Below, in pieces: positions 28,114 to 39,892 of a DNA stretch of 62,856 bases. The stretch spans positions 1 to 62,856 of the forward strand of contig CALUQL010000002.1 of assembly GCA_944322895.1 (NCBI GenBank), given 5' to 3'. This DNA comes from Candidatus Gastranaerophilales bacterium. Lineage in GTDB: Bacteria > Cyanobacteriota > Vampirovibrionia > Gastranaerophilales > Gastranaerophilaceae. The position numbers and the translations under genes were made by a program. The notes under the pieces were generated by a model, which saw only the letters and a list, made by a program, of their open reading frames with translations, had not been told where the DNA came from and did not search any database. Positions within the stretch are counted from its first letter, which is position 1; every line of letters begins with the position of its first letter.

Positions 28114-29169
28114 ATGATACAGAGAAGAATTTCAAAACAAATACAAATTGGTAATATTAAAATAGGTGGAGATGCTCCTATATCAGTACAGTCAATGACT
28201 AATACAGATACAAGAGATGTTGAAGCTACCTTAAAACAAATTTACAATTTAAGTGAACAAGGCTGTGAATTGGTTCGCCTTGCAATACTTAATCCTGATG
28301 CAGCTGAAGCTGTTAAGGAAATAAAAAAGAAATCACCTTTGCCTTTAATTGCAGATATACATTTTGATTATAGACTTGCAATACGTTGTATTGAAAATGG
28401 TATTGATGCATTAAGAATTAATCCCGGAAATATAGGTAAAGAAGAACATACAAAGAAAGTTGTTGAACTTGCAAAAATAAATAATGTTCCTATAAGAATT
28501 GGTATTAATGGTGGTTCTTTAGAAAAAGAATTTGAACAAATGGATATACCGCTTGCTGAAAAGATGGTTATGAGTGCTATGAGGCACGTCAAAATTTTGG
28601 AAGATAATAATTTTGATAAAATTAAAATTTCTTTAAAATCTAGTGATGTATTAACAACCATTGAAGCATATAGGTTAATTGCAAATAAAGTTGATTATCC
28701 GCTTCATCTTGGAGTTACTGAAGCCGGTACTTATACAGGTGGTATAATTAAATCGGCTGTTGGCTTGGGAACTCTGCTTGCTGAGGGTATTGGTGATACT
28801 ATTAGGGTTTCACTTACTGATTCTCCTATAGAAGAAGTTAAAGCTGGATTTCTAATTCTAAAATCTTTAGGATTGAGAAAAAGAGGTATAAATTTTGTTT
28901 CTTGTCCTACTTGCGGTAGAACACAAATTGATTTAATTTCATTAGCGAAAGAAGTTGAAAAAAAATTAGAAAATTTTGATAAACCTCTTACTATTGCGGT
29001 TATGGGGTGTGCTGTAAATGGTCCAGGTGAAGCTAAACACGCTGATTACGGTATTGCTGGTGGAATAAAAGAAGGTTATATATTTAAAAAAGGTGAAATT
29101 ATTAAACGTTTGCCTGAAGAAAAACTTGTTGATGAATTTATAAATCTCATACAAACGGAGAATGTTTAA
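28114..29169 (+). CDS. ispG: 4-hydroxy-3-methylbut-2-enyl diphosphate synthase (flavodoxin/ferredoxin)
   Basis: 351 residues, the compact bacterial form. Converts methylerythritol cyclodiphosphate to HMBPP, the penultimate step of the MEP isoprenoid pathway. The TIM-barrel start is recognised by GDAPISVQSMTNTDTRDVEAT, followed by PLIADIHFDYRLA and ALRINPGNIG. The 4Fe-4S ligands are the Cys in FVSCPTCGRTQIDL and in VMGCAVNGPGEAKHADYGIAGG. It needs reduced flavodoxin or ferredoxin. Followed by a small exported protein gene on the same strand. Confidence 0.96.
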   Translation: MIQRRISKQIQIGNIKIGGDAPISVQSMTNTDTRDVEATLKQIYNLSEQGCELVRLAILNPDAAEAVKEIKKKSPLPLIADIHFDYRLAIRCIENGIDALRINPGNIGKEEHTKKVVELAKINNVPIRIGINGGSLEKEFEQMDIPLAEKMVMSAMRHVKILEDNNFDKIKISLKSSDVLTTIEAYRLIANKVDYPLHLGVTEAGTYTGGIIKSAVGLGTLLAEGIGDTIRVSLTDSPIEEVKAGFLILKSLGLRKRGINFVSCPTCGRTQIDLISLAKEVEKKLENFDKPLTIAVMGCAVNGPGEAKHADYGIAGGIKEGYIFKKGEIIKRLPEEKLVDEFINLIQTENV

Positions 29170-29227: not shown

Positions 29228-29530
29228 ATGAGAAAAATATCTTTAATTTTTGCAATTTTTTTAGTAAGTTCTATGTCTTCAAATGCTTTTGTTGATAATA
29301 CTTATATGACTACAGATCAGTATCTGGTAAATACGGGTTATTCTGCGGAAATGGCTAAAATGATAAAAGTGACAAATCAAGATCCTTACAGAGACCCTTA
29401 TGTTGAACCAAATACACCTAAAGATGTTTTAAAGAGAGTTTATAACTATATTGTTCCTGGAGCTTATACTGATTTAGACTTTTATAATCATAGTATTAAT
29501 TATAAGTATCCAAACTGGAAAGATTACTAA
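29228..29530 (+). CDS. small exported protein, unknown function
   Basis: 100 residues with a clear AAAGGGGA site. Signal peptide MRKISLIFAIFLVSSMSSNA, so the mature protein of about 80 residues is periplasmic or surface-exposed. It is rich in Tyr, Pro and Asp (DPYRDPYVEPNTP, YNYIVPGAYTDLDFYNHS, KYPNW) with no Cys. The middle has a helical NTGYSAEMAKMIKVT stretch. Not a recognised family. A strong terminator follows. Confidence 0.65.
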   Translation: MRKISLIFAIFLVSSMSSNAFVDNTYMTTDQYLVNTGYSAEMAKMIKVTNQDPYRDPYVEPNTPKDVLKRVYNYIVPGAYTDLDFYNHSINYKYPNWKDY

Positions 29531-29550: not shown

Positions 29551-29580
29551 AAAAAAGAGGTCATTTATGACCTCTTTTTT
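29551..29580. terminator. bidirectional rho-independent terminator
   Basis: AAAAAAGAGGTCA and TGACCTCTTTTTT form a 13-bp stem around TTTA. With A and T runs on both sides it can end the forward small-protein transcript and the reverse nuo operon, whose last stop codon lies at 29579. Confidence 0.88.
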
Positions 29581-31015
29581 ATATGTAATATGCTATTATT
29601 TGAGATAATTTAATGAATTCATTTGGATATATACAGATTAATATTGTTATGATACTGCATACATAAAGAATAATTTTTCCAATGGTAATATTTTTTATTA
29701 TTTTTGTATCTTGTGAATTTTTTTCATAAATTACTTTAATAATTTTAAAATATAAAAATAGGCTTATTACTGTTGCGCAAAGGGTTAAAAATAATATTAT
29801 CAGATAGGTAAAATCTTCTCTGGATAGAGCTGAAAATAAATATAACTTTGATAAAAATCCGCTTGTTGGTGGTAAACCTGCTAAAGATATCAAGCATATT
29901 GTAAAGGCTATTGAAAAATATGGGTTTTTATAAAATATTCCTTTATAATCTATTATTTCATCGCTTTGATAATTTGTTGTATAAATAATTGAAGCATTCC
30001 ATATTCCAATATTCATAAAAATATATGTAAAAATATAGAATATTAAACAAGAAAATCCATATACACTTACGCAACTTGCAGCTAATAATAAAAAACCGGA
30101 GTGTAAGATAGAACTATATGCATAGAGTCTTTTTATATTTGTTTGCTTAATACCCCCTATTGCAGAATATATTATTGAACATAGCGCAATAATTGCTGTT
30201 AGTATTTGTATTATTGGACTATATGAAAATATAAACACAAATAATCTTGAAATTAGTCCAATTGCCGCAATTTTTGGAATTATCGATAAATATGTTCCTA
30301 CACCATATGTTGAACCTTCATATATATCAATTATCCAGTTATTGAATGGAATGCATCCAAGTTTAAAAGTTAGAGCACTTATTATTAATATACAAGAAAT
30401 TATAAACATTATGTTTATTCCATATGTGGATATTACGTCAGAAATATCTGAAAAATTTATGTTTCCTGTTATTCCGTATAAGTATGAAATTCCAAGAAGA
30501 AATATTGCAGAAGAACTTGCTCCGGTTATTAAATATTTTAATGCGGCTTCTTTTGATTTGTGATTTCTTCGAAATGATGTTAAAAAGTAGCAACAAACGC
30601 TTAATAGTTCAATTGATATAAATGCGCTTATAAAATCATTAGATGAGATTATTGAAAATGCACTTAATATTCCTGTTAAAAATATAGAGAAAAATTCATA
30701 TGATTTTTGTCTTTTTTCTCTTATGAAACTTTGAGATGAAAGAATTATTAATAATCCTGATATCAATATCATTATTTTGAATGCTGTTGTGTAAATATTA
30801 GATATATATACATCATTAAAAGCTTTATATGTTGGATTGATTTGTATGAAAAATATTGATAAGCCAGATAGAGCTATTGCTAATATGGTTGTTATTTTAG
30901 ATATTTTATATGTATTCTTTTTTATAAAAAGTGGAAAAATAATATTTAAAATTATAAATATAAATAATATTAGTTCCGGTAAAAAAGTGCTTTGTATATC
31001 TTTTATTATTTCCAT
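29579..31015 (-). CDS. nuoN: NADH-quinone oxidoreductase subunit N (complex I membrane arm)
   Basis: 478 residues, 13-14 predicted membrane helices. An antiporter-like proton-pumping subunit (NdhB in cyanobacteria). Landmarks: ISIELLSVCCYFL with the conserved helix-5 Glu, YLITGASSSAIFLLGISYLYG, a Lys in LTFKLGCIPFNNWIIDIYEGST and YAYSSILHSGFLLLA. Last gene of the operon; its start overlaps the nuoM stop by one base. Confidence 0.92.
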   Translation of the reverse strand: MEIIKDIQSTFLPELILFIFIILNIIFPLFIKKNTYKISKITTILAIALSGLSIFFIQINPTYKAFNDVYISNIYTTAFKIMILISGLLIILSSQSFIREKRQKSYEFFSIFLTGILSAFSIISSNDFISAFISIELLSVCCYFLTSFRRNHKSKEAALKYLITGASSSAIFLLGISYLYGITGNINFSDISDVISTYGINIMFIISCILIISALTFKLGCIPFNNWIIDIYEGSTYGVGTYLSIIPKIAAIGLISRLFVFIFSYSPIIQILTAIIALCSIIYSAIGGIKQTNIKRLYAYSSILHSGFLLLAASCVSVYGFSCLIFYIFTYIFMNIGIWNASIIYTTNYQSDEIIDYKGIFYKNPYFSIAFTICLISLAGLPPTSGFLSKLYLFSALSREDFTYLIILFLTLCATVISLFLYFKIIKVIYEKNSQDTKIIKNITIGKIILYVCSIITILICIYPNEFIKLSQIIAYYI

Positions 31016-32520
31016 TAAAAAACTCCTTGCGGATTATATGTAATATTTGTGTATTCTCTTATTATGTCTGTCAATAAGAATGGGAATATGCCGAAAATTA
31101 TTATGCATATTGTCAACAAACATAAAATTGTAAGTTGTTTTGTGTTTATATCAGATATTTTTCTGTTTTTTACTTTTATAGTGTTAAAAAATACTCCGTG
31201 GAAGATTTTTAGTATGTATATACTTGAAAAGATTAGGACGCTTAGTGCTGCTAACGATAATGTTTTTGCGTCAAATATTCTTTCTGTTTGCATTAAAAAA
31301 GCACCGGTAAAACTTAAAAACTCAGCTATAAAACCACATAATAATGGTGTGCCGATTGAAGCTAATAATATTGGTATAGAGATAAACATAAGTCTTGGCA
31401 TTTTTTCACCGAGTCCTGTTATTCTGGTTATATTTTTTGTTCCGCATTTTATGTATATTAATCCTGCTATTGTGAATAAACCCGCACTTATAAAAGCATG
31501 TGAGAACAGTTGAAATATTCCGCCTGTTATTCCTATTGAATTTAGTGAGGATATGCCAAGTAAAAATATTCCCATATTTGCAATTCCTGAAAAAGCAATA
31601 ATTCTTTTTATATCTTTTTGCATAATTGCACAGAAGCTGGCATATATTATGTTTATTAAAGCAAAAAGCATTATAAATATTGCAAAAACTTGAAACTCAT
31701 AATTAAACATTTGCAGGTTAAATCTTAAAATACCGTATGCTCCAAGTTTTAAAAGTATAGATGACAATATAATACTAACCGGAGTTGGTGCTTGTGAATG
31801 CACATCGCTTAACCAGCCGTGTAATGGTATTATAGGAAGTTTAACTCCAAAACCTATTAATAAAAGGAAGAAGATTAAATTTCTTAGAACTTCAGGTGCT
31901 GATATTATATCTATATCGTTTATATCGCTGCTTAAAGCACCTGTAAGTTTAAAATTTAAATAGTATAAGATTAAAAATCCTAATAGTATAAAAATACTTC
32001 CGAAGAATGTATATAGTAGAAATTTCAAGGCTGTTTTTTGTTTATTTCCGCTGCCCCATTTTTGTATAAGAAGATACATCGGAATTAGTTCAAGTTCCCA
32101 AAACAAGAAAAATAAAAAGATATCTTTTGCACTAAATACTCCGAGGATTGCTGTTAACAATATAAATATGAGTGAGTAATATAATCTGTATGATTTTTTT
32201 ATCATACTTTTACTTAAATAGATTGCTATTAGAAATATAAATGAAGTAAGAATAACAAATAGCATAGTTAAAGAATCAAATGCAAAATTGGCATTTATAC
32301 CTAATATATCAATCCATTGGTAGTCTGTTTCAATTATAAAGTCAGGATTTGAGAAATTAAAGAAAATACTGCATAGTACGGTCAAGGCAAAATGAATAGT
32401 TATGAAACCTTTTGATACTCTTCTGATTATTTTTTCTTCATCCGCTACAAACGGACTATATAAAATTAAGCTCATTATTAATGGTGTAAAGACTATTAAA
32501 GGAATAAAATTATCTATCAT
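31015..32520 (-). CDS. nuoM: NADH-quinone oxidoreductase subunit M
   Basis: 501 residues, 14 membrane helices. Antiporter-like proton channel subunit (NdhD). Characteristic segments: LFLFFWELELIPMYLLI with the essential Glu, KFLLYTFFGSIFILLG with the helix Lys, KLPIIPLHGWLSDVHSQAPTP and a following IILSSILLKLGAYG, which distinguishes M from L and N. The gene lies 1 base after the nuoL stop. Confidence 0.94.
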   Translation of the reverse strand: MIDNFIPLIVFTPLIMSLILYSPFVADEEKIIRRVSKGFITIHFALTVLCSIFFNFSNPDFIIETDYQWIDILGINANFAFDSLTMLFVILTSFIFLIAIYLSKSMIKKSYRLYYSLIFILLTAILGVFSAKDIFLFFLFWELELIPMYLLIQKWGSGNKQKTALKFLLYTFFGSIFILLGFLILYYLNFKLTGALSSDINDIDIISAPEVLRNLIFFLLLIGFGVKLPIIPLHGWLSDVHSQAPTPVSIILSSILLKLGAYGILRFNLQMFNYEFQVFAIFIMLFALINIIYASFCAIMQKDIKRIIAFSGIANMGIFLLGISSLNSIGITGGIFQLFSHAFISAGLFTIAGLIYIKCGTKNITRITGLGEKMPRLMFISIPILLASIGTPLLCGFIAEFLSFTGAFLMQTERIFDAKTLSLAALSVLIFSSIYILKIFHGVFFNTIKVKNRKISDINTKQLTILCLLTICIIIFGIFPFLLTDIIREYTNITYNPQGVF

Positions 32521-32521
32521 A

Positions 32522-34348
32522 TTAACTCCTCAATGCCATAAAATATAAGTATAAAATAATTAACAGTATTATTCCGATTGAAAAAATCGAATATGAAACA
32601 TAAGTTTGAATGTTACCATTTTGAAGTTTAGAAATTATATTTGAGATGAATTTTGTTATTTTTACTGTTATATTAATAAATCCTTCAATAACATATTTAT
32701 CAATTATATTTACTGCAAAGTATATTAAATTAAACAATCTGCCTATGAAATTATATAAGTTAGGGATAAAAAGCTCATTTTGAGATAATTTATATAGCAA
32801 TGGCGGAATCATAATCTTATTACATTTATTACTGAAATATGCTGAAAATATAGCTGTTATTCCAACTCCGAATGTGAGTAGACACAACATATTTATTTGT
32901 GAAACTTTGAACAAAAATCCTGGAAATATTACAAATATAACCATTGTCATTAACGCAAACGACATTGATTTTTCATTTGTTATTTTATATTCTTCTTTTT
33001 TATTTCCTTCAAAGATATTGAAATAAGTTCTAAAAATATAGAAAGTACTCATAAAAGATGTTAACAGAATTAAAAATAATATTGATTTATTGTTCTCTGC
33101 TATATTTAATAGCATTTCTTTAGATGTGAAGCCTCCAAAGAAAAGTCCTGAGAGTGACAATGCTCCAATTATCCAATAAATTGCAAGATAAAAATCGATT
33201 TTTCTTAATCCAGATATATCTTTTGTTTCTATTGAATTTGAAATTTGTGAAATATTCCCTGTACATAAGAATAGTAAAGCTTTTGTAAAAGAATGTATTA
33301 CTAAATATATTATTGCAACGGGGATAGATTGTAAGCCAATTGCTGTGAACATTAGTCCTAATTGAGAAGATGTTGAATATGCAAGCATTTTTTTTATATT
33401 ATTTTGAGAAATAGCTATAAATGCACATAAAACAGCAGTTATAAGTCCAAGTGATAATATTATTTTTAATAATTCGTCAGATAATAAAGGATATATTCTA
33501 ATTATTAAAAATACACCTGCACACACCATCGTAGCCGAATGAATTAATGCACTTACAGGCGTAGGCGCTTTCATTGCATCTATCAGCCATTGTTGAAACG
33601 GAAATTGAGCTGATTTTACAAATGCTCCGATTATAAATAAAGATAGAACTAAATTGTATACATTTGGATATGTCAAACTTTGAAGTTGGTTATGAAAATA
33701 GTCTAAATAACTAAATGCTAAGAATTCATTTGGTTGTTGATTCATATATGTTATCGAAAAATATGCAAAAAATATGATTCCTGCTAAAAGAGCAGTATCG
33801 CCAAATCTATTAATGATAAAGACTTTTTTTGCAGATAGTGATACATCTTCTTTTTTATGAAAAAATCCTATTAAAAGATAACTTGCAACACCTACTAGTT
33901 CCCAAAAGATATATAATTGTATTAAGTTTGGAGAAAGAATTAATCCGGTCATTGCAAAGTTGAAAAAATTCAGATATATAAAATACTTATTAAATTCTTC
34001 TTTATTTTTCATATATCCATATGAATAGATTTGGATTAATAAACTTATTAACATTAAAATAACAAGGAATATAGCCGAAGTTGAATCAAGTAAAACTCCA
34101 AGGTTAATATTAAGTTTATCAATATTAATCCAAGAAAAAGAATCCTCTATAATTATTGGTTGAGGACTTTTTATATGATTAAAAAGAGCAATTGCGAATA
34201 TCAAGCCTGTTAAAGTTGAAATTGATGTCAAAAAGGCTGTCATTTTTCTGTTTTCAGTTAATCTGATAAAGGCACCTGAAATGATTATCAGGCAAATCCA
34301 TAATGGAAGAAACATTATTAGGAATATATTATTAGCAAAAAAATCCAT
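32522..34348 (-). CDS. nuoL: NADH-quinone oxidoreductase subunit L
   Basis: 608 residues, the largest membrane subunit (NdhF). Its length fits the 16-helix form with the C-terminal lateral helix. Landmarks: LYIFWELVGVASYLLIGFF, a Lys pair in FHKKEDVSLSAKKVFI, AFVKSAQFPFQQWLIDAMKAPTP, ALIHSATMVCAGVFLI and AYSTSSQLGLMF. Proton translocation at the distal end of the arm is expected. Overlaps the nuoK stop by one base. Confidence 0.95.
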   Translation of the reverse strand: MDFFANNIFLIMFLPLWICLIIISGAFIRLTENRKMTAFLTSISTLTGLIFAIALFNHIKSPQPIIIEDSFSWINIDKLNINLGVLLDSTSAIFLVILMLISLLIQIYSYGYMKNKEEFNKYFIYLNFFNFAMTGLILSPNLIQLYIFWELVGVASYLLIGFFHKKEDVSLSAKKVFIINRFGDTALLAGIIFFAYFSITYMNQQPNEFLAFSYLDYFHNQLQSLTYPNVYNLVLSLFIIGAFVKSAQFPFQQWLIDAMKAPTPVSALIHSATMVCAGVFLIIRIYPLLSDELLKIILSLGLITAVLCAFIAISQNNIKKMLAYSTSSQLGLMFTAIGLQSIPVAIIYLVIHSFTKALLFLCTGNISQISNSIETKDISGLRKIDFYLAIYWIIGALSLSGLFFGGFTSKEMLLNIAENNKSILFLILLTSFMSTFYIFRTYFNIFEGNKKEEYKITNEKSMSFALMTMVIFVIFPGFLFKVSQINMLCLLTFGVGITAIFSAYFSNKCNKIMIPPLLYKLSQNELFIPNLYNFIGRLFNLIYFAVNIIDKYVIEGFINITVKITKFISNIISKLQNGNIQTYVSYSIFSIGIILLIILYLYFMALRS

Positions 34349-34662
34349 TAGCCTTTTAGCTCCTCAATCTCTTCTGATGTAATTTTCTCTTTATTTTTAT
34401 ATATTTGATATATTAATACGAGTCCTATTGCTGTTTGTAGTGCTGAAATTGCAGTTATAAATAAAGCAAATATCATACCGGATAGGAAAAGATAGTTTTT
34501 GTATGCTGTAAATGCTATGAAATTTAAGTTTATTGCTGACATTACTATCTCTATGCATATTAGAACTTTTATAATATTTTTTGAAATTATTATTCCAATA
34601 AAACCTATTGCAAAAAGAATTAAAGATAAAACTAAATAATGATATAAGGTGATTTCAAACAT
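34348..34662 (-). CDS. nuoK: NADH-quinone oxidoreductase subunit K
   Basis: 104 residues with three membrane helices (NdhE). The two functionally important membrane glutamates are visible: the Glu in VLICIEIVMSAINLNFIAF, and a second acidic position is absent or moved, since the third helix reads ALFITAISALQTAIGLVLIYQIYK without the usual Glu. The N-terminal LSLILFAIGFIGIIISKN is typical. Overlaps both neighbours by a single base. Confidence 0.92.
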   Translation of the reverse strand: MFEITLYHYLVLSLILFAIGFIGIIISKNIIKVLICIEIVMSAINLNFIAFTAYKNYLFLSGMIFALFITAISALQTAIGLVLIYQIYKNKEKITSEEIEELKG

Positions 34663-35198
34663 TATTTTGATTCTCCTTTAAAAGTTAATAATACTAGAAT
34701 ACCGATGAGAACGATTAAAAGATAAAGGCCTAAAAGTTCAAATGAGTATAAATTGTGTGTTAAAAGTTCTGAAGATAATTGTTTAGTATTATCAAGACTT
34801 GTTAATATATGCGATGAGTTAATGTATGTTTTAAAAACGGAATCATACAGCATTGTTTCTTTTAGAAAAATTAAAATGGATGAAAGAATCATTATAACAC
34901 CTAAAAAAGCAAAGATAATTGCAGGTGAAAACTTTATTTTATGCGTTTCTTCTTCATTATTATTAGTAAGCATAACCGCTATAGCAAAAAGAATACATAG
35001 GGCTATTCCATATATTGAAATTTGAATTACTCCGTTAAAAAGAGCATTTAAGAAGAAAAATAGAAGTCCGAAACAAATAAATGTTACTAATGCAAAAAAT
35101 ACACTTTTCATTATTTTTTTTGTAAAAATTACCGCTATACTTGAAAATATAATAATTGCGGAAATTATATAAAATATAATTACATTTAATTGTTCCAT
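34662..35198 (-). CDS. nuoJ: NADH-quinone oxidoreductase subunit J
   Basis: 178 residues, five membrane helices (NdhG). The conserved helix with KSVFFALVTFICFGLLFFFLNA and the Tyr-containing QISIYGIALCILFAIAVMLT (family: VQ.LVY.GAI..L..F.IML) identify it. Where many members have a Tyr-Val-Gly-Ala stretch, this one has Tyr-Gly-Ile-Ala. One-base overlaps with nuoI and nuoK. Confidence 0.9.
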   Translation of the reverse strand: MEQLNVIIFYIISAIIIFSSIAVIFTKKIMKSVFFALVTFICFGLLFFFLNALFNGVIQISIYGIALCILFAIAVMLTNNNEEETHKIKFSPAIIFAFLGVIMILSSILIFLKETMLYDSVFKTYINSSHILTSLDNTKQLSSELLTHNLYSFELLGLYLLIVLIGILVLLTFKGESK

Positions 35199-35563
35199 TA
35201 ATTTATTCCCTCATTGAATATTAATTCATTTTTATTGTTTGTTGCTAATTCGTATTCTTTTGTTATTTTTAATGCACCTTTCGGGCAAAATTCAACACAA
35301 TTAGCACAGAATATACATTGACTATAGTTTATTTTAAATGTTTCGTTTATTTCTATGGTTCCTTTTGCGGGGCAAACTCTTTGACAAATTTTGCATTTGA
35401 TACATTTTGTTTTATCGTATTTAATTTTACCTCTAAAATTGTTATTAAGAATTTTTTTCTTTTCGGGGTATTCAAGTGTTACTTTCTCTTTAAAACCATT
35501 TTTTAATACGGTTAAAAGTCCTTTTATCAATTCTTTTATAGGGTAAATAAAACTTTTTATCAT
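35198..35563 (-). CDS. nuoI: NADH-quinone oxidoreductase subunit I (2x 4Fe-4S)
   Basis: 121 residues, shorter than the usual 160-180. Two complete ferredoxin motifs, CIKCKICQRVCP and CIFCANCVEFCP, hold clusters N6a and N6b that pass electrons towards NuoB. The N-terminal amphipathic stretch (SFIYPIKELIKGLLTVLKN) packs on the membrane arm. The shortening is at the linker and C-terminus. Start overlaps the nuoH stop by 4 bases (ATGA). Confidence 0.94.
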   Translation of the reverse strand: MIKSFIYPIKELIKGLLTVLKNGFKEKVTLEYPEKKKILNNNFRGKIKYDKTKCIKCKICQRVCPAKGTIEINETFKINYSQCIFCANCVEFCPKGALKITKEYELATNNKNELIFNEGIN

Positions 35564-36645
35564 AAACTCCCCCTAAAATATTGAACAATACACAAAACAA
35601 ACAGATTAAAAATAGCTAAGGGTATAAAAATATACCAGCAAAGTTCAAGGGTTTTATCTGTCTTAAACCTTGGATAGGCTGCTCTTATCCACATTATTAT
35701 TAATATTAACAAGAAAGTTTTTAGTATTAACCAGAAAAATTGTTCAATATTTCTTATAAGTTCTCCCGTGATTAATGGTAAATCAAACAAATCTGCTATA
35801 TAAAATCCCAAAGGCGAATTGTATCCGCCTAAAAATAAAGTAGCTATGTATGTACTAAAAATAAAGGTTAAGGCGTATTCGCCAAGAAAGAACATTGCAA
35901 ATTTCATGCCTGAATATTCGCAGTGATAGCCTGCTACAAGCTCACTTTCAGCTTCCGGAAAATCAAACGGAATTCTGTTTAATGTTATTAATGAGCAAAT
36001 GAAAAATATTATGAAACCCAATATTGCAGGAAAAATATTCCATTGTAAAAATGAATACTGAGCTTTTACTATTTCATTTAAGTTCATAGAACCTGTTAAT
36101 ATAACTATGCCTGCAAGCACAAGAAATATTGGAATTTCAGAACTTATTGCCTGAATACAAGAACGCAGGCCTCCAATTAAAGAATATTTATTTCCGCTTG
36201 AATATCCTGCAAATAATATGCCGGCTATAGGGAGTGATAATATTGCCATAAATAATAAAATACCAATATCTGATTTGTAAGAATTAATGTCTGATGAAAA
36301 AGGAATTAGCGAATATACTGTTAAAATGGGTGCAAAAACTATAATTGGTGCAACAAAATAAATAAATTTATCTGCATTTTTTGGCATTATATTTTCTTTG
36401 AATAATATTTTTATTCCATCTGCTACTGTTTGCAGACATCCATAAAATCCGACTCTATTTGGACCTTTTCTTCTTGTGAAAAAAGCAAGGTATTTTCTTT
36501 CAAATAGAACTAAAAATAATACGGCTAAAATCATTAATAAACTTATAAAAATGAAATAAATGATTTGCCATAACATAAAAATTAACCATTCAGGAATGTT
36601 TAATTTTAAAAGATATTCGATAAAAATAAGATGAAATATACTCAT
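35560..36645 (-). CDS. nuoH: NADH-quinone oxidoreductase subunit H
   Basis: 361 residues, eight membrane helices (NdhA). Forms the quinone chamber with NuoB and NuoD. Diagnostic: LFERKYLAFFTRRKGPNRVGFYGCLQTVADGIKIL, a charged FDFPEAESELVAGYHCEYSG loop and FWLILKTFLLILIIMWIRAAYPRFK. All quinone-cavity Glu/Arg positions that I can align by eye are present. Overlaps neighbours by 4 and 1 bases. Confidence 0.95.
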   Translation of the reverse strand: MSIFHLIFIEYLLKLNIPEWLIFMLWQIIYFIFISLLMILAVLFLVLFERKYLAFFTRRKGPNRVGFYGCLQTVADGIKILFKENIMPKNADKFIYFVAPIIVFAPILTVYSLIPFSSDINSYKSDIGILLFMAILSLPIAGILFAGYSSGNKYSLIGGLRSCIQAISSEIPIFLVLAGIVILTGSMNLNEIVKAQYSFLQWNIFPAILGFIIFFICSLITLNRIPFDFPEAESELVAGYHCEYSGMKFAMFFLGEYALTFIFSTYIATLFLGGYNSPLGFYIADLFDLPLITGELIRNIEQFFWLILKTFLLILIIMWIRAAYPRFKTDKTLELCWYIFIPLAIFNLFVLCIVQYFRGSL

Positions 36646-37760
36646 TATCTGTCTACCTCCGGCATGATTATATCTAAGCTGCCAAAGATTGCCATCAAAT
36701 CAGGAAGCATAAATCCTTTTGCAATTGTATTGATTGCTTGCGTTGCATAGAATGACGGTGTCCTCCACTTGATTCGGTTTGGAAATTCAGTTCCGTTTGC
36801 TTCTATATAGCATTGTAAAAGTCCTCTTGTTGATTCAACTTCGCCCAAAGAAGTCCCGTTTGGTTTTATTGTTAACGGATTTATTTTCGTATTTATTTCG
36901 TTGTCTTCTATATTTGATAAAAGCCAATCTGTACATTGATTTATTATTTTATTACTTTCTTTCATTTCCTTTATTCTCATAATGTATCGTGAATGAGAAT
37001 CGGAAATTGTTCCTATTGGAACAGAAAATTCTAAATTATTGTATATAAGATAAGGAGAATCTTTTCTTAAATCTTTTTGAATTCCGCAGGCTCTTAAATT
37101 TGCACCTGTTATTGAATATTCTGTTGCATCTTCTTTAGATAATATTCCTATGTTTTTTGTTCTTGTAATAAAGATAGGGTTGTTTGTTATTAAGTCTTCG
37201 TATTCTTGAACTGCTTTTAAAAATTCATTGGAAAACTTTTTAATTCTTATTAAAAGTTCTTTCTCTATATCCCTTTTAACACCGCCAAAAGTATAGTAGT
37301 TATACATCATTCTTGAACCTGTTAAATCTTCAAAAATATTTAATATTTTTTCTCTTTCAATAAATGTGTAAAATAATGGAGATGTGGCTCCTAAATCAAG
37401 CAGATAGCAGCCTAGCCACAGAAGGTGCGATGAAATTCTATTCATTTCCATTGTAAGTGTTCTTATATATTTTGCTTTTATCGGAATATCTGTATTAATT
37501 AAATTTTCAATTGCTGAAATGTAAGCATATGAACAGAAAAATCCTGAAAGATAATCAACCCTGTCAACAATAGGTAAGTATTGCAGATATGTTCTTGTTT
37601 CTGCCATTTTTTCCATACCGCGGTGCAGGTATCCGATTATGGGTTCTATTTGTATAATTTGTTCACCACTTAACGTCACAAGCATTCTCAACACTCCATG
37701 TGTTGATGGGTGTTGCGGTCCTACGTTTATTTGCATTGTATGTTCAGAAGTTTTAGTCAT
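36645..37760 (-). CDS. nuoD: NADH-quinone oxidoreductase subunit D
   Basis: About 371 residues from the ATG at 37760, which gives an 8-base ATGACTAA overlap with nuoC; an in-frame ATG at 37790 is the alternative, with a larger overlap. Quinone-binding 49-kDa-type subunit (NdhH). Motifs: [15 protein letters not shown] with the quinone His, [46 protein letters not shown] and near the C-terminus an Asp in [12 protein letters not shown], the normal family end. Like other NuoD it derives from a NiFe-hydrogenase large subunit but lacks the NiFe-ligand cysteines. Confidence 0.95.
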
Positions 37761-38205
37761 TATTCCATTTGAGTCTTTCATCATTTGCAATGTAGTCTTT
37801 TCTTAAAGGATTCCCTTTAAATGAATCTGGCAGCAGAATTCGTTTTAGGTTTGGGTGATTATTAAATTTAATTCCATATAGGTCATAAATTTCTCTCTCA
37901 TCCCAAGTTGCATTTTTATATATATCGGAAATGCTTACAGTCTCAGCTTCTTCGTAGTCCAAATAATAACTTATTGCACATTTTGTATTATATGTATCAG
38001 AGTTTAAAATGTAGCTGACAGTAAAGTTTTTAGAATTATCTTTTGCAATAATGCAATCTAGCCTAGAAAATATTGTCTCCGGAGAATTCTTCAAGTACCT
38101 TAATGCTTCTTTTATATTCTCTTTTTTAATATAAAATTCTTGAATATTTGGTAGAATTATAGTCTTATTTAATATATCAAATTTTGTTTCAAATTCTTTA
38201 AACAC
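37753..38205 (-). CDS. nuoC: NADH-quinone oxidoreductase subunit C
   Basis: 150 residues (NdhJ). The conserved C-terminal signature is seen: [39 protein letters not shown]. The N-terminal domain has the expected [10 protein letters not shown] strand. It is a separate gene, not a NuoCD fusion. Stops within the nuoD start and begins 3 bases after nuoB. Confidence 0.93.
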
Positions 38206-38208
38206 AAA

Positions 38209-38763
38209 CTATATCCCCATTTTAAAAATATTAACATCTTCTTGTATTAAAATATCAAGGTCATCTTGAATCTTTAACTTAGACTTATGTTTTGCTATAA
38301 GTTCTTTTCTTGTAGTTAAGGATTCCTTTTTTATTTCTGATTGAAGCTTTCTTATAGCATCAATAAGAGCTTCAGGTTTTGGTGGGCACATGGGTAGATA
38401 AATATCAACGGGAATAATCTTATCTGCCCCGTAAACAACAGAATAAGAATCATTTTTAAACATTCCGCCAGAGCAAGCACAAGCGCCCATTGCAATAACA
38501 TACTTCGGTTCCGGCATTTGTTCGTATAACTTTAATAGTAAAGGAGCCATTTTATGAGTTATGGTTCCTGCTATAATTAAAAGATCTGCTTGTCTTGGAG
38601 AAGCTCTGAAAACTTCAGATCCAAATCTTGCTATATCATAGTCAGAAGCTGATACTGACATCATTTCTATGCCACAGCAAGATGTAGCAAACGTTAATGG
38701 CCATAATGAGTTTGACCTTGCCCAGTTAGATATTGCATCTATCGTTGAAAAAATAATATTCAT
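38209..38763 (-). CDS. nuoB: NADH-quinone oxidoreductase subunit B
   Basis: 184 residues (NdhK). Holds cluster N2, the terminal donor to quinone. The four ligand cysteines are present: adjacent Cys-Cys in [11 protein letters not shown], one in [12 protein letters not shown] and one in [16 protein letters not shown]. The arginine-containing [21 protein letters not shown] is conserved. The C-terminus has an extra charged tail. Starts at the nuoA stop with one-base overlap. Confidence 0.96.
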
Positions 38764-39116
38764 TATTTAAACCTTAACATTCTTGTTCTTATTGCATAAA
38801 TTAAGCCTAATAGCAGTAATCCTAAAAATATAACTATTTCAATTAAAGCAAATACCCCGAGAAAACTATAGCTTAGTGCAAAAGGAAATATAAATATTGT
38901 TTCAACATCGAAAATTAAAAATAATATTGCATAAATAAGAAATTGTATTTTAAATTTACAATTAAACTTTTCTTTTATATTTAATCCGCATTCATAAATA
39001 CTTTCTTTATTCTCATTATTTGCTTTAGGTGCTGCAATAATTGAACATATCAACATAAAAATAGCAAATAATAGTGCAAAAAAAATAAACGTAAATAAAA
39101 TCCCGATTTCTTGCAT
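38763..39116 (-). CDS. nuoA: NADH-quinone oxidoreductase subunit A
   Basis: 117 residues with three membrane helices (NdhC). The family loop is recognised as [10 protein letters not shown], with the Glu-Cys-Gly at residues 40-45, then [20 protein letters not shown] with the conserved Asp-Val-Glu. First gene of the 11-gene operon. AAGGATAGTAATAA precedes the ATG. A TATAAA-like box lies about 25 bases further upstream. Confidence 0.95.
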
Positions 39117-39208
39117 TTATTACTATCCTTGTTGCTAACCTTGAAATATTTATAACATATAGTTATTATTAAGATAAATAGCTAGATTGGATATTATTAA
39201 GTTTGATT

Positions 39209-39892
39209 ATGAAAAGTTTACGAAATAAACTAATATATACTTTATTGATAATTTTTTTATCTTTAAATTGTGCGTTTGCGGATAATTTTTCTCAAGCTGA
39301 AAAATTGTTAAGGAAAGCTCAAACAACATCTAATCAAGAAGAAGGCTATGAATATATTCATAAAGCAAGAATCTTATATGAAGAAGAATATGAAAAAAAT
39401 CCGATAAATACGAAAGCATTATTGGGATTATCTAAAGTAAATCAACTTCTTCAAGATAGAGCAGAGGCAAAATTATATGTTTTAAAAGCTTATAATATGA
39501 ATCCTGCTGATCCTAAGTTGCAAAGAGCAATGGGAGATTTCTTTTACAGTTTTCAAGAATATTCAACAGCTATAGAATATTATAAATTAGCATTAGCTTC
39601 CGGTTTATTAAGGGATTTTGATACTAATCTTCAGAGTGCAAAATGCTATGAGAAACTAGGTGATTTGAAAAATGCTGAATTGTATTATCAGATTTGTTTT
39701 CATTTGAATGCCAAATCAAAAGAAGTAATGAATAAATTAAATGAATATACATCGGCAAAACATCCTGATCATTCACAAGAATTGGAAGAAGCTAAATATA
39801 AATATCTATTTAAAGATAAAAAAATTCCACAAGAACAGCAGATAGAAGAAGAAGCTTCAGATATTATTGAAAATATAAATAGTTTCTATTGA
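39209..39892 (+). CDS. exported tetratricopeptide-repeat protein
   Basis: About 227 residues from the ATG at 39209 (a TTG two codons earlier is in frame); no strong ribosome site. Signal peptide MKSLRNKLIYTLLIIFLSLNCAFA. Then TPR-like helical pairs: a first repeat about residues 30-60, then ALLGLSKVNQLLQDRAEAKLYVLKAYNMNP, AMGDFFYSFQEYSTAIEYYKLAL and SAKCYEKLGDLKNAELYYQICFHLN, with Gly8/Ala20-like positions. A periplasmic adaptor or scaffold is likely. Its end overlaps the convergent hypothetical gene by 7 bases. Confidence 0.75.
   Translation: MKSLRNKLIYTLLIIFLSLNCAFADNFSQAEKLLRKAQTTSNQEEGYEYIHKARILYEEEYEKNPINTKALLGLSKVNQLLQDRAEAKLYVLKAYNMNPADPKLQRAMGDFFYSFQEYSTAIEYYKLALASGLLRDFDTNLQSAKCYEKLGDLKNAELYYQICFHLNAKSKEVMNKLNEYTSAKHPDHSQELEEAKYKYLFKDKKIPQEQQIEEEASDIIENINSFY

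Follow-up and report, generated by a model that had tools for sequence, protein, structure and literature searches.

An eleven-subunit complex I operon with an altered NuoK in a Gastranaerophilales bacterium, and related loci without the redox arm

The stretch of DNA analysed here, referred to as the window, comprises positions 1 to 62,856 of the forward strand of contig CALUQL010000002.1 (assembly GCA_944322895.1) of a Candidatus Gastranaerophilales bacterium, and coordinates given without a locus label are positions in it. The window contains an operon for eleven subunits of complex I, in which glutamine occupies the site of one of the two membrane glutamates of NuoK. Related genera include some in which the redox arm is missing from the locus and the membrane genes are retained. 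The genome of the window is a draft of 2.15 Mb in 159 contigs, with a completeness of 93%. The window's own genus is g1, called the genus below, and the other g-numbers denote related genera.

The eleven-gene operon

On the minus strand, from 39116 to 29579, there are eleven open reading frames (ORFs) in the order nuoA-B-C-D-H-I-J-K-L-M-N. All are complete and in frame, and all were assigned to Nuo families through NCBIfam/Pfam profile matches. Residue numbers are those of Escherichia coli where so marked.

38763 to 39116, minus strand: nuoA, 117 residues; equivalents of E. coli E51, D79 and E81 retained
38209 to 38763, minus strand: nuoB, 184 residues; all four N2-cluster cysteines retained
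37753 to 38205, minus strand: nuoC, 150 residues
36645 to 37790, minus strand: nuoD, from a TTG start; equivalents of Thermus His38, Tyr87 and Asp139 retained
35560 to 36645, minus strand: nuoH, 361 residues; equivalents of E. coli E36, E157, D213, E216, E218, E220 and E228 retained
35198 to 35563, minus strand: nuoI, 121 residues, short; all eight cluster cysteines present
34662 to 35198, minus strand: nuoJ, 178 residues; Tyr59 equivalent retained, Gly61 equivalent altered
34348 to 34662, minus strand: nuoK, 104 residues; Glu38 (E. coli E36) retained, Gln76 at the E. coli E72 site
34435 to 34437, minus strand: the CAA codon of NuoK Gln76
32522 to 34348, minus strand: nuoL, 608 residues; six listed Glu, Lys and His residues retained, His334 equivalent a Tyr in the genus
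31015 to 32520, minus strand: nuoM, 501 residues; equivalents of E144, K234, K265 and E407 retained
29579 to 31015, minus strand: nuoN, 478 residues; equivalents of E133, K217, K247 and K395 retained

The genes are tightly joined. Overlaps of a single base are found at the A/B, D/H, I/J, J/K, K/L and M/N junctions and one of 4 bases at H/I, and gaps of 3 bases and 1 base separate B from C and L from M. From its listed TTG start, NuoD overlaps NuoC by 38 bases. In-frame ATGs at NuoD residues 11 or 19 bring this overlap down to 8 or 0, and the real start is probably one of these internal codons rather than the TTG.

The original prediction for this DNA, made from the sequence alone, had described one block of these genes with tight junctions, as the ORF coordinates and family matches bear out. 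It had also named frameshifts as the finding that would speak against an intact operon; none is present. A relative, G020, has the same operon with 94–99% protein identity, gene by gene, and the ratio of nonsynonymous to synonymous divergence (dN/dS) between the two is 0.04–0.16 across each of the eleven genes, with its minimum in nuoK (0.037). The operon is not an artefact of frameshifts, nor is it in decay; it is under purifying selection.

The cyanobacterial type of ancestry that had been predicted is confirmed by a NuoD tree (93 rows, quick method). The order's sequences are joined by class relatives and then by four cyanobacterial NdhH rows, the window's class and the cyanobacteria being grouped with a support of 97 in the Shimodaira-Hasegawa-like approximate likelihood ratio test, so that NuoD is sister to NdhH.

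NuoK and the other residues of the complex

In the window's NuoK, glutamate is present at residue 38 (E36) and the residue aligned to E. coli E72, residue 76, is glutamine. The original prediction had noted the lack of a glutamate in the last helix. This was right, and it was underrated: the missing NuoK glutamate is the real anomaly of this operon. The two NuoK/ND4L glutamates are central to competing models of coupling, in one of which their protonation governs both waves (PMC9802314).

How widespread is the change? A wide scan of 80 loci gave 63 readable NuoK sequences, all 63 with both glutamates, and three of these loci (L079, from a record titled Goat_Duodenum, L080 and L082) fall within the window's own family in trees. 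Within the genus, nuoK is above cut-off in 13 of 41 genomes, and 12 of the 13 have glutamine at the E72 site, encoded by CAA in all 12 genomes with the window's operon type. The sole genus genome with nuoK and Glu72 is G015, which was retained in the genus counts. Its operon clusters with genus g31 and the contamination listed for this genome is 9%, for which reasons it is likely that this operon is a transfer or lies on a foreign contig.

From the order, 286 genomes were drawn. Here nuoK was above cut-off in 109, and with four more NuoK was read in 113, of which 64 have glutamate, 35 glutamine and 14 another residue at the E72 site. Both glutamates are present in the 19 genomes outside the family, in g31 (32/32), g32 (5/5) and g36 (4/4), in the one genome each of g46 and g50, and in G151 of g33. 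E72 alone is lost in g1 (12/13), g41 (one genome), g47 (one), g51 (one, His) and g44 (3/3, Val or Ile). Both are lost in g30 (16/16; Phe or Cys, and Gln), g39 (4/4), g48 (one), g42 (one) and G128 of g33; both are also lost in g35 (7/7), but scores there are very low and the alignment is unsure. In the one g43 genome, NuoK is too divergent for safe alignment. A second weak PF00420 match, in a frame of 235–268 residues (G008:C174, G021:C43, G015:C31 and many g31 genomes), is perhaps a separate antiporter locus.

The listed redox residues are retained in the window complex, as judged by alignment: the N2 cysteines of NuoB, the eight cysteines of NuoI and the His, Arg, Tyr and Asp of the NuoD quinone site. 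Of the core residues of complex I, the acidic path of NuoA and NuoH and the central Lys and Glu residues of NuoL, NuoM and NuoN are present; of the two NuoK membrane glutamates, which also belong to this core, there is only E36. Further charge changes specific to the genus are a Lys and an Asn in the NuoK loop ahead of the last helix, the NuoL His334 to Tyr change, and one NuoH site, at which the other members of the order that were read have Glu. The NuoJ Gly61 change was dropped as a trait of the genus, being altered in all 14 relatives aligned as well. NuoI is short, as predicted, with its eight cysteines intact: 121 residues against 144–167 in the four other families of the order that were read, the loop between its motifs being shorter; inside the window's own family its length is 120–163 residues. 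In NuoB, the residue adjoining the last N2 cysteine is Met125 (38391–38389); this residue is Gly in E. coli and in those genera outside the family that were read. A membrane-bound [NiFe] hydrogenase (Mbh/Ech), whose NuoD-like subunit has paired cysteine ligands for [NiFe], was considered as well; in the NuoD translation no CxxC pair was seen, and the best families are those of NuoD.

Loci without the redox arm in related genera

Loci were read in 40 genomes, in stretches of up to 19 kb (G040 in part). Eleven subunits are found at the loci of g1, g31, g36, g41, g43, g44, g46, g47 and g51. The g50 locus is broken by a contig end, and in g32 NuoC has no entry separate from that of a long NuoB frame. 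The g33 (2/2; L271, L272) and g42 (1/1; L270) loci have A-H-J-K-L-M-N without B, C, D and I. At the loci of g30 (6/6), g39 (4/4) and g48 (1/1) there is J-K-L'-M-N alone, where L' is a shortened nuoL. These membrane-only operons are:

g30: L259–L261, L288, L294 and L295
g39: L262–L264 and L289
g48: L265

At the J-K-L'-M-N locus of G142, J was recognised by position and not by profile. In all seven g35 loci K-L-M-N is strongly diverged, and J could be recognised in five. At an E-value of 0.001, the profiles for A, B, C, D, H and I had no matching ORF in the loci of g30, g39, g48 and g35.

The borders of the operon bear on how these forms arose. In the window they are:

39203 to 39892, plus strand: a tetratricopeptide repeat (TPR) gene, divergent to nuoA
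29228 to 29530, plus strand: a small ORF at the nuoN end, in the same place in the g1, g41, g47 and g51 loci read
28114 to 29169, plus strand: gcpE (ispG), the nuoN-side border of the locus, the same in 6 of 7 g35 loci

A divergent TPR gene is 86–90 bases from nuoA in three g1 loci, and 79–155 bases from nuoJ in all eleven g30, g39 and g48 loci. Since it adjoins nuoJ in the reduced loci as it adjoins nuoA in the genus, the six genes A, B, C, D, H and I are gone from between them and were most likely lost from this place. Common ancestry of the TPR gene at the border is likely, not certain.

The reduced loci differ in their residues as well. NuoL' of g30, g39 and g48 has 385–387 residues, and in the four loci mapped it corresponds to E. 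coli NuoL 1–285 and 555–613 with two short scraps between, which is an internal deletion. In all eleven loci NuoM has Arg for K234, Asn, Ala, Ser or Cys for K265, and Lys for E407, and NuoN has Gln for E154 and Val or Pro for K247. In E. coli, a NuoM variant with Lys at the E407 site reportedly retains about 80% activity. The first Glu of NuoL and of NuoM and NuoL Lys229 are retained in 11/11, and NuoN Glu133 and Lys217 in 10/11 each. Most listed acidic residues of NuoH and NuoA are gone in g33. In L278, the locus of g43 (G188), the eleven genes are present with the NuoB and NuoI cysteines intact; the quinone site of its NuoD has Arg for His and Val for Asp, and most of its listed proton-path residues are altered.

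Nonsynonymous divergence (dN) is low in the reduced g30 and g39 forms. Among six g30 species NuoM identity is 78–99% with a dN of 0.00–0.16, synonymous divergence (dS) being above 1.4 and thus saturated in 14 of 15 pairs; NuoJ is much looser, with 47–96% identity. Selection on NuoM and NuoN of the reduced forms is strong. An Mrp antiporter was considered for one g30 locus, L259: by reading, its ORF list has no MrpE, MrpF or MrpG, and the best matches of its NuoM and NuoN are NDH-1 families (355.9 and 283 bits), not Mrp.

A careful tree of NuoM and NuoN was built from 42 rows, without g35 (six rows), G184, G188, E. coli, the near copies G204 and G215, and most wide-scan loci; G227, G261, G005 and G059 are in neither this tree nor a quick one of 61 rows, in which long rows were joined (g35 with g43). 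In the careful tree the family is a single clade (support 100/99). The clade that includes the window has 21 rows (100/98) and contains g1, g47, g41, g51, g33, g30, g39 and g48, and within it g33, g30, g39 and g48, which have no redox arm at the locus, form a single clade (100/97). On this tree three changes are needed for the loss of E72, with G151 coded as Glu, and two for architecture. E72 was probably lost early in the window's half of the family, and the redox arm left the locus in a sister branch. The long branches g35 and g42, omitted here, would be further losses.

Electron partners, rival readings and known systems

NuoE, NuoF and NuoG are absent from the window, as had been predicted. 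The genome-wide search was aimed at NuoF alone, and not at the NuoE and NuoG families: the NuoF family (PF01512) has a single match in the draft genome, HydB. This match belongs to a HydABC cluster on contig C21 (L047:6390-10513). There HydB, of 620 residues, is preceded by the NuoE-like HydC and followed by the [FeFe] hydrogenase HydA, so that the hydrogenase search proposed with the original prediction had a positive outcome. The best model for HydA is group A6, at 748 bits just below the cut-off of 765. HydA carries TSCCPAW, MPCTAKK and ACPGGCVNGGGQP, which we take to be the three H-cluster motifs. In this it differs from the hydrogenase of gut Melainabacteria, which is said to be without the L2 and L3 motifs (PMC3787301).

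Marker families for donors and acceptors were searched in 58 genomes (that of the window, 34 from its genus, 22 from the order and 1 from the class). Cytochrome bd, heme-copper oxidase and the SdhB/FrdB family were each found in one of these, the same-class genome G057, and no cytochrome bd above cut-off in the window's genome. The MqnA/D family is present in 14 of 58 and in none of the genus; 13 of the 30 genomes with nuoK have it and 17 do not. MenD is above cut-off in 0 of 58, its best match in the window's genome reaching 48 bits. UbiA occurs in 55 of 58 and therefore does not track complex I; in the window's genome its match is MenA-like and weak, at 57.5 bits (cut-off 264). The UbiE family is found in 40 of 58, with strong matches (E <1e-30) in the genus restricted to G000, G001, G003, G005, G010, G017 and G020; the UbiE/MenG protein of the window's genome scores 172 bits (cut-off 158) and is truncated by a contig end. 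This genome thus has late menaquinone-type genes of UbiA and UbiE type only, without MqnA or MenD above cut-off. A pyruvate:ferredoxin oxidoreductase is present, by reading, in the close relative G005. The original prediction had left the donor and acceptor as a question, and had suggested looking for terminal oxidases and quinone biosynthesis. In both searches, which covered the marker families above, no terminal acceptor and no complete quinone route were found, and of the quinone genes only the late ones.

As for fumarate reductase, the PF00890 candidates among the matches listed are L-aspartate oxidase, one large protein and a fragment at a contig edge. The same L-aspartate oxidase start occurs with small differences at two contig ends (L058:2-355 and L177:15230-16837), which points to mixed strains in the draft. 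A long PF00890 protein in G036 has, by reading, the look of an AprA-type flavoprotein and is beside an apparent sulfate-assimilation gene. The G005 MenD-like gene (L059:1051-2730) lies, by reading, between sugar-epimerase/reductase-like and flippase-like genes, with no menaquinone cluster.

What does such a complex do? We think it somewhat probable that the window encodes a working eleven-subunit complex with coupling altered at NuoK, at an early stage of a family series in which the membrane part later took on a role independent of redox chemistry. The complex would have come down the lineage that it has in common with cyanobacterial NDH-1, without an NADH module of its own. It would most likely oxidise reduced ferredoxin and reduce quinone, which might be completed from a scavenged naphthoate precursor by UbiA- and UbiE-type enzymes, and would pump protons through NuoL, NuoM and NuoN with an altered step at NuoK. 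With Gln in place of NuoK E72, protonation can no longer change at one of the two carboxylate positions that lie between the E-channel and NuoN. The gene content of the loci, their residues, the synteny, the tree and the purifying selection are observations; we infer the donor, the acceptor, the redox-independent role and the stoichiometry, and read the redox part from retained residues. In the family, the proton path would have become dispensable first and the redox arm after it, and J-K-L-M-N would have been kept for a second membrane role, most likely ion exchange or leak. We read the reduced forms, which by themselves would be incapable of redox work, as ion-moving or structural membrane complexes.

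A bolder form of this series, which we hold as tentative, is that complex I has here reverted to a membrane machine free of redox chemistry. With E72Q and eleven subunits, the window would stand near the first step; B, C, D and I would be lost next (g33), then A and H; and at the last stage NuoL would be reduced to its first half and last helix, with J-K-L'-M-N of g30, g39 and g48 moving ions without electrons. The Gilliamella genes described below would be a parallel.

Is the glutamine instead the first mark of decay in a relic under relaxed selection, soon to be lost? The patchy presence of nuoK in the genus (13/41), the eroded or shortened operons of other genera and the strong divergence of g35, g42 and g43 would suit a relic, but the dN/dS of the window's operon, the low dN of the reduced g30 and g39 forms, the otherwise intact listed residues, and the finding of Gln (CAA) rather than random residues in all 12 genus genomes of this operon type make it unlikely. 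Reverse operation, in which proton-motive force and reduced quinol would drive the reduction of ferredoxin for hydrogenase and biosynthesis, has already been considered for the complex of gut Melainabacteria, together with a ferredoxin link (PMC3787301). It would agree with HydABC in the genome and with the lack of a terminal acceptor among the families searched. We nevertheless consider it quite improbable: it requires a source of quinol, none of which was found, and related genera drop the redox arm from the locus and retain the membrane genes. Lastly, HydC and HydB, as homologues of NuoE and NuoF, might dock on the complex and supply electrons from NADH or hydrogen, as has been suggested for HoxEFU and cyanobacterial NDH-1; PMC9414918 makes the case for electrons passing from the Hox hydrogenase to NDH-1. 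However, PF01512 (49/58 genomes) does not follow nuoK (30/58) and no genetic link was seen between HydBC and complex I, and docking is in our view very improbable.

Several findings weigh against the altered but working complex, and the series built on it, that we favour. No complete quinone pathway and no terminal reductase were found in the window's genome among the marker families, and for this reason "quinone reductase" may be the wrong name. A strong UbiE match is present in just 5 of the 11 genus genomes with nuoK in the set of 58, and MenD-like proteins of 140–168 bits, below the cut-off of 244, occur in G004, G005, G007, G013 and G018. That nuoK is not above cut-off in 28 of 41 genus genomes means that the complex is dispensable. 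G151 of g33 has both NuoK glutamates at a locus without B, C, D and I, and the order of steps is therefore not strict. The TPR matches in the reduced loci are 26–33% identical and may be to a different TPR gene, the absence of the redox arm in the reduced genera is one from the loci read, and such genes may lie elsewhere in those genomes. The window's own genome is a draft, as are those of most relatives.

If the favoured reading is true, these natural enzymes with one or both NuoK glutamates missing, with and without the redox arm, would allow coupling models to be tested against evolution, beyond single mutants. The series also suggests an independent function for the membrane arm, a point relevant to how complex I first came together.

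How do these loci compare with known systems? An eleven-subunit complex I in gut Melainabacteria is not new. It was published in 2013, for gut and aquifer members with no other electron-transport parts (PMC3787301), and the original prediction was sound on the subunit set, the lack of an NADH module in the operon and the cyanobacterial ancestry. A partial complex I without NuoEFG is also described for Saganbacteria and Melainabacteria, with ferredoxin as a possible donor (PMC6349859). The complex I of Melainabacteria has been placed beside that of Cyanobacteria, with which the window's NuoD tree agrees, and in a nuoK tree Melainabacteria are not one clade (PMC8235220). The window's complex is like these, which are described in fermentative gut members, in its subunit set without NuoEFG and in its wider lineage; neither NuoK residues nor loci lacking B, C, D and I come up in the accessible text of the three papers. 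In the open-licence literature searched, mostly as abstract openings, nothing pointed to an earlier account of the NuoK change in Melainabacteria or of loci there that lack the redox arm, and as far as these searches show the loss of the NuoK glutamate is new.

Among solved structures, NuoB, D, H, I, J and K find their best matches in chains from chloroplasts or cyanobacteria (e.g. 6hum, 9grx, 7eu3). The absence of an NADH module is a further likeness to these NDH-1 complexes, from which the window's complex differs in its single operon, its short NuoI and the Gln in NuoK. Accessory subunits of cyanobacterial NDH-1 include NdhS, NdhM, NdhN and NdhO; none was seen in the operon, no dedicated search having been made. 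The strict anaerobe Desulfitobacterium hafniense also has an eleven-subunit complex I-like enzyme without an NADH module, for which there are rotenone data and ferredoxins are proposed as shuttle (PMC11238625). That organism respires organohalides, whereas in the window's genome the families searched yielded no terminal reductase. A likeness in gene content to g30, g39 and g48 is seen in Gilliamella of the bee gut, where the same five membrane genes, nuoJKLMN, are kept in all 95 genomes and are regarded by the authors as possible remnants (PMC11325843). Beyond what the accessible text describes for Gilliamella, the g30, g39 and g48 loci add, in another lineage, the internal NuoL deletion, the residue changes, the synteny and the selection on the genes that remain.

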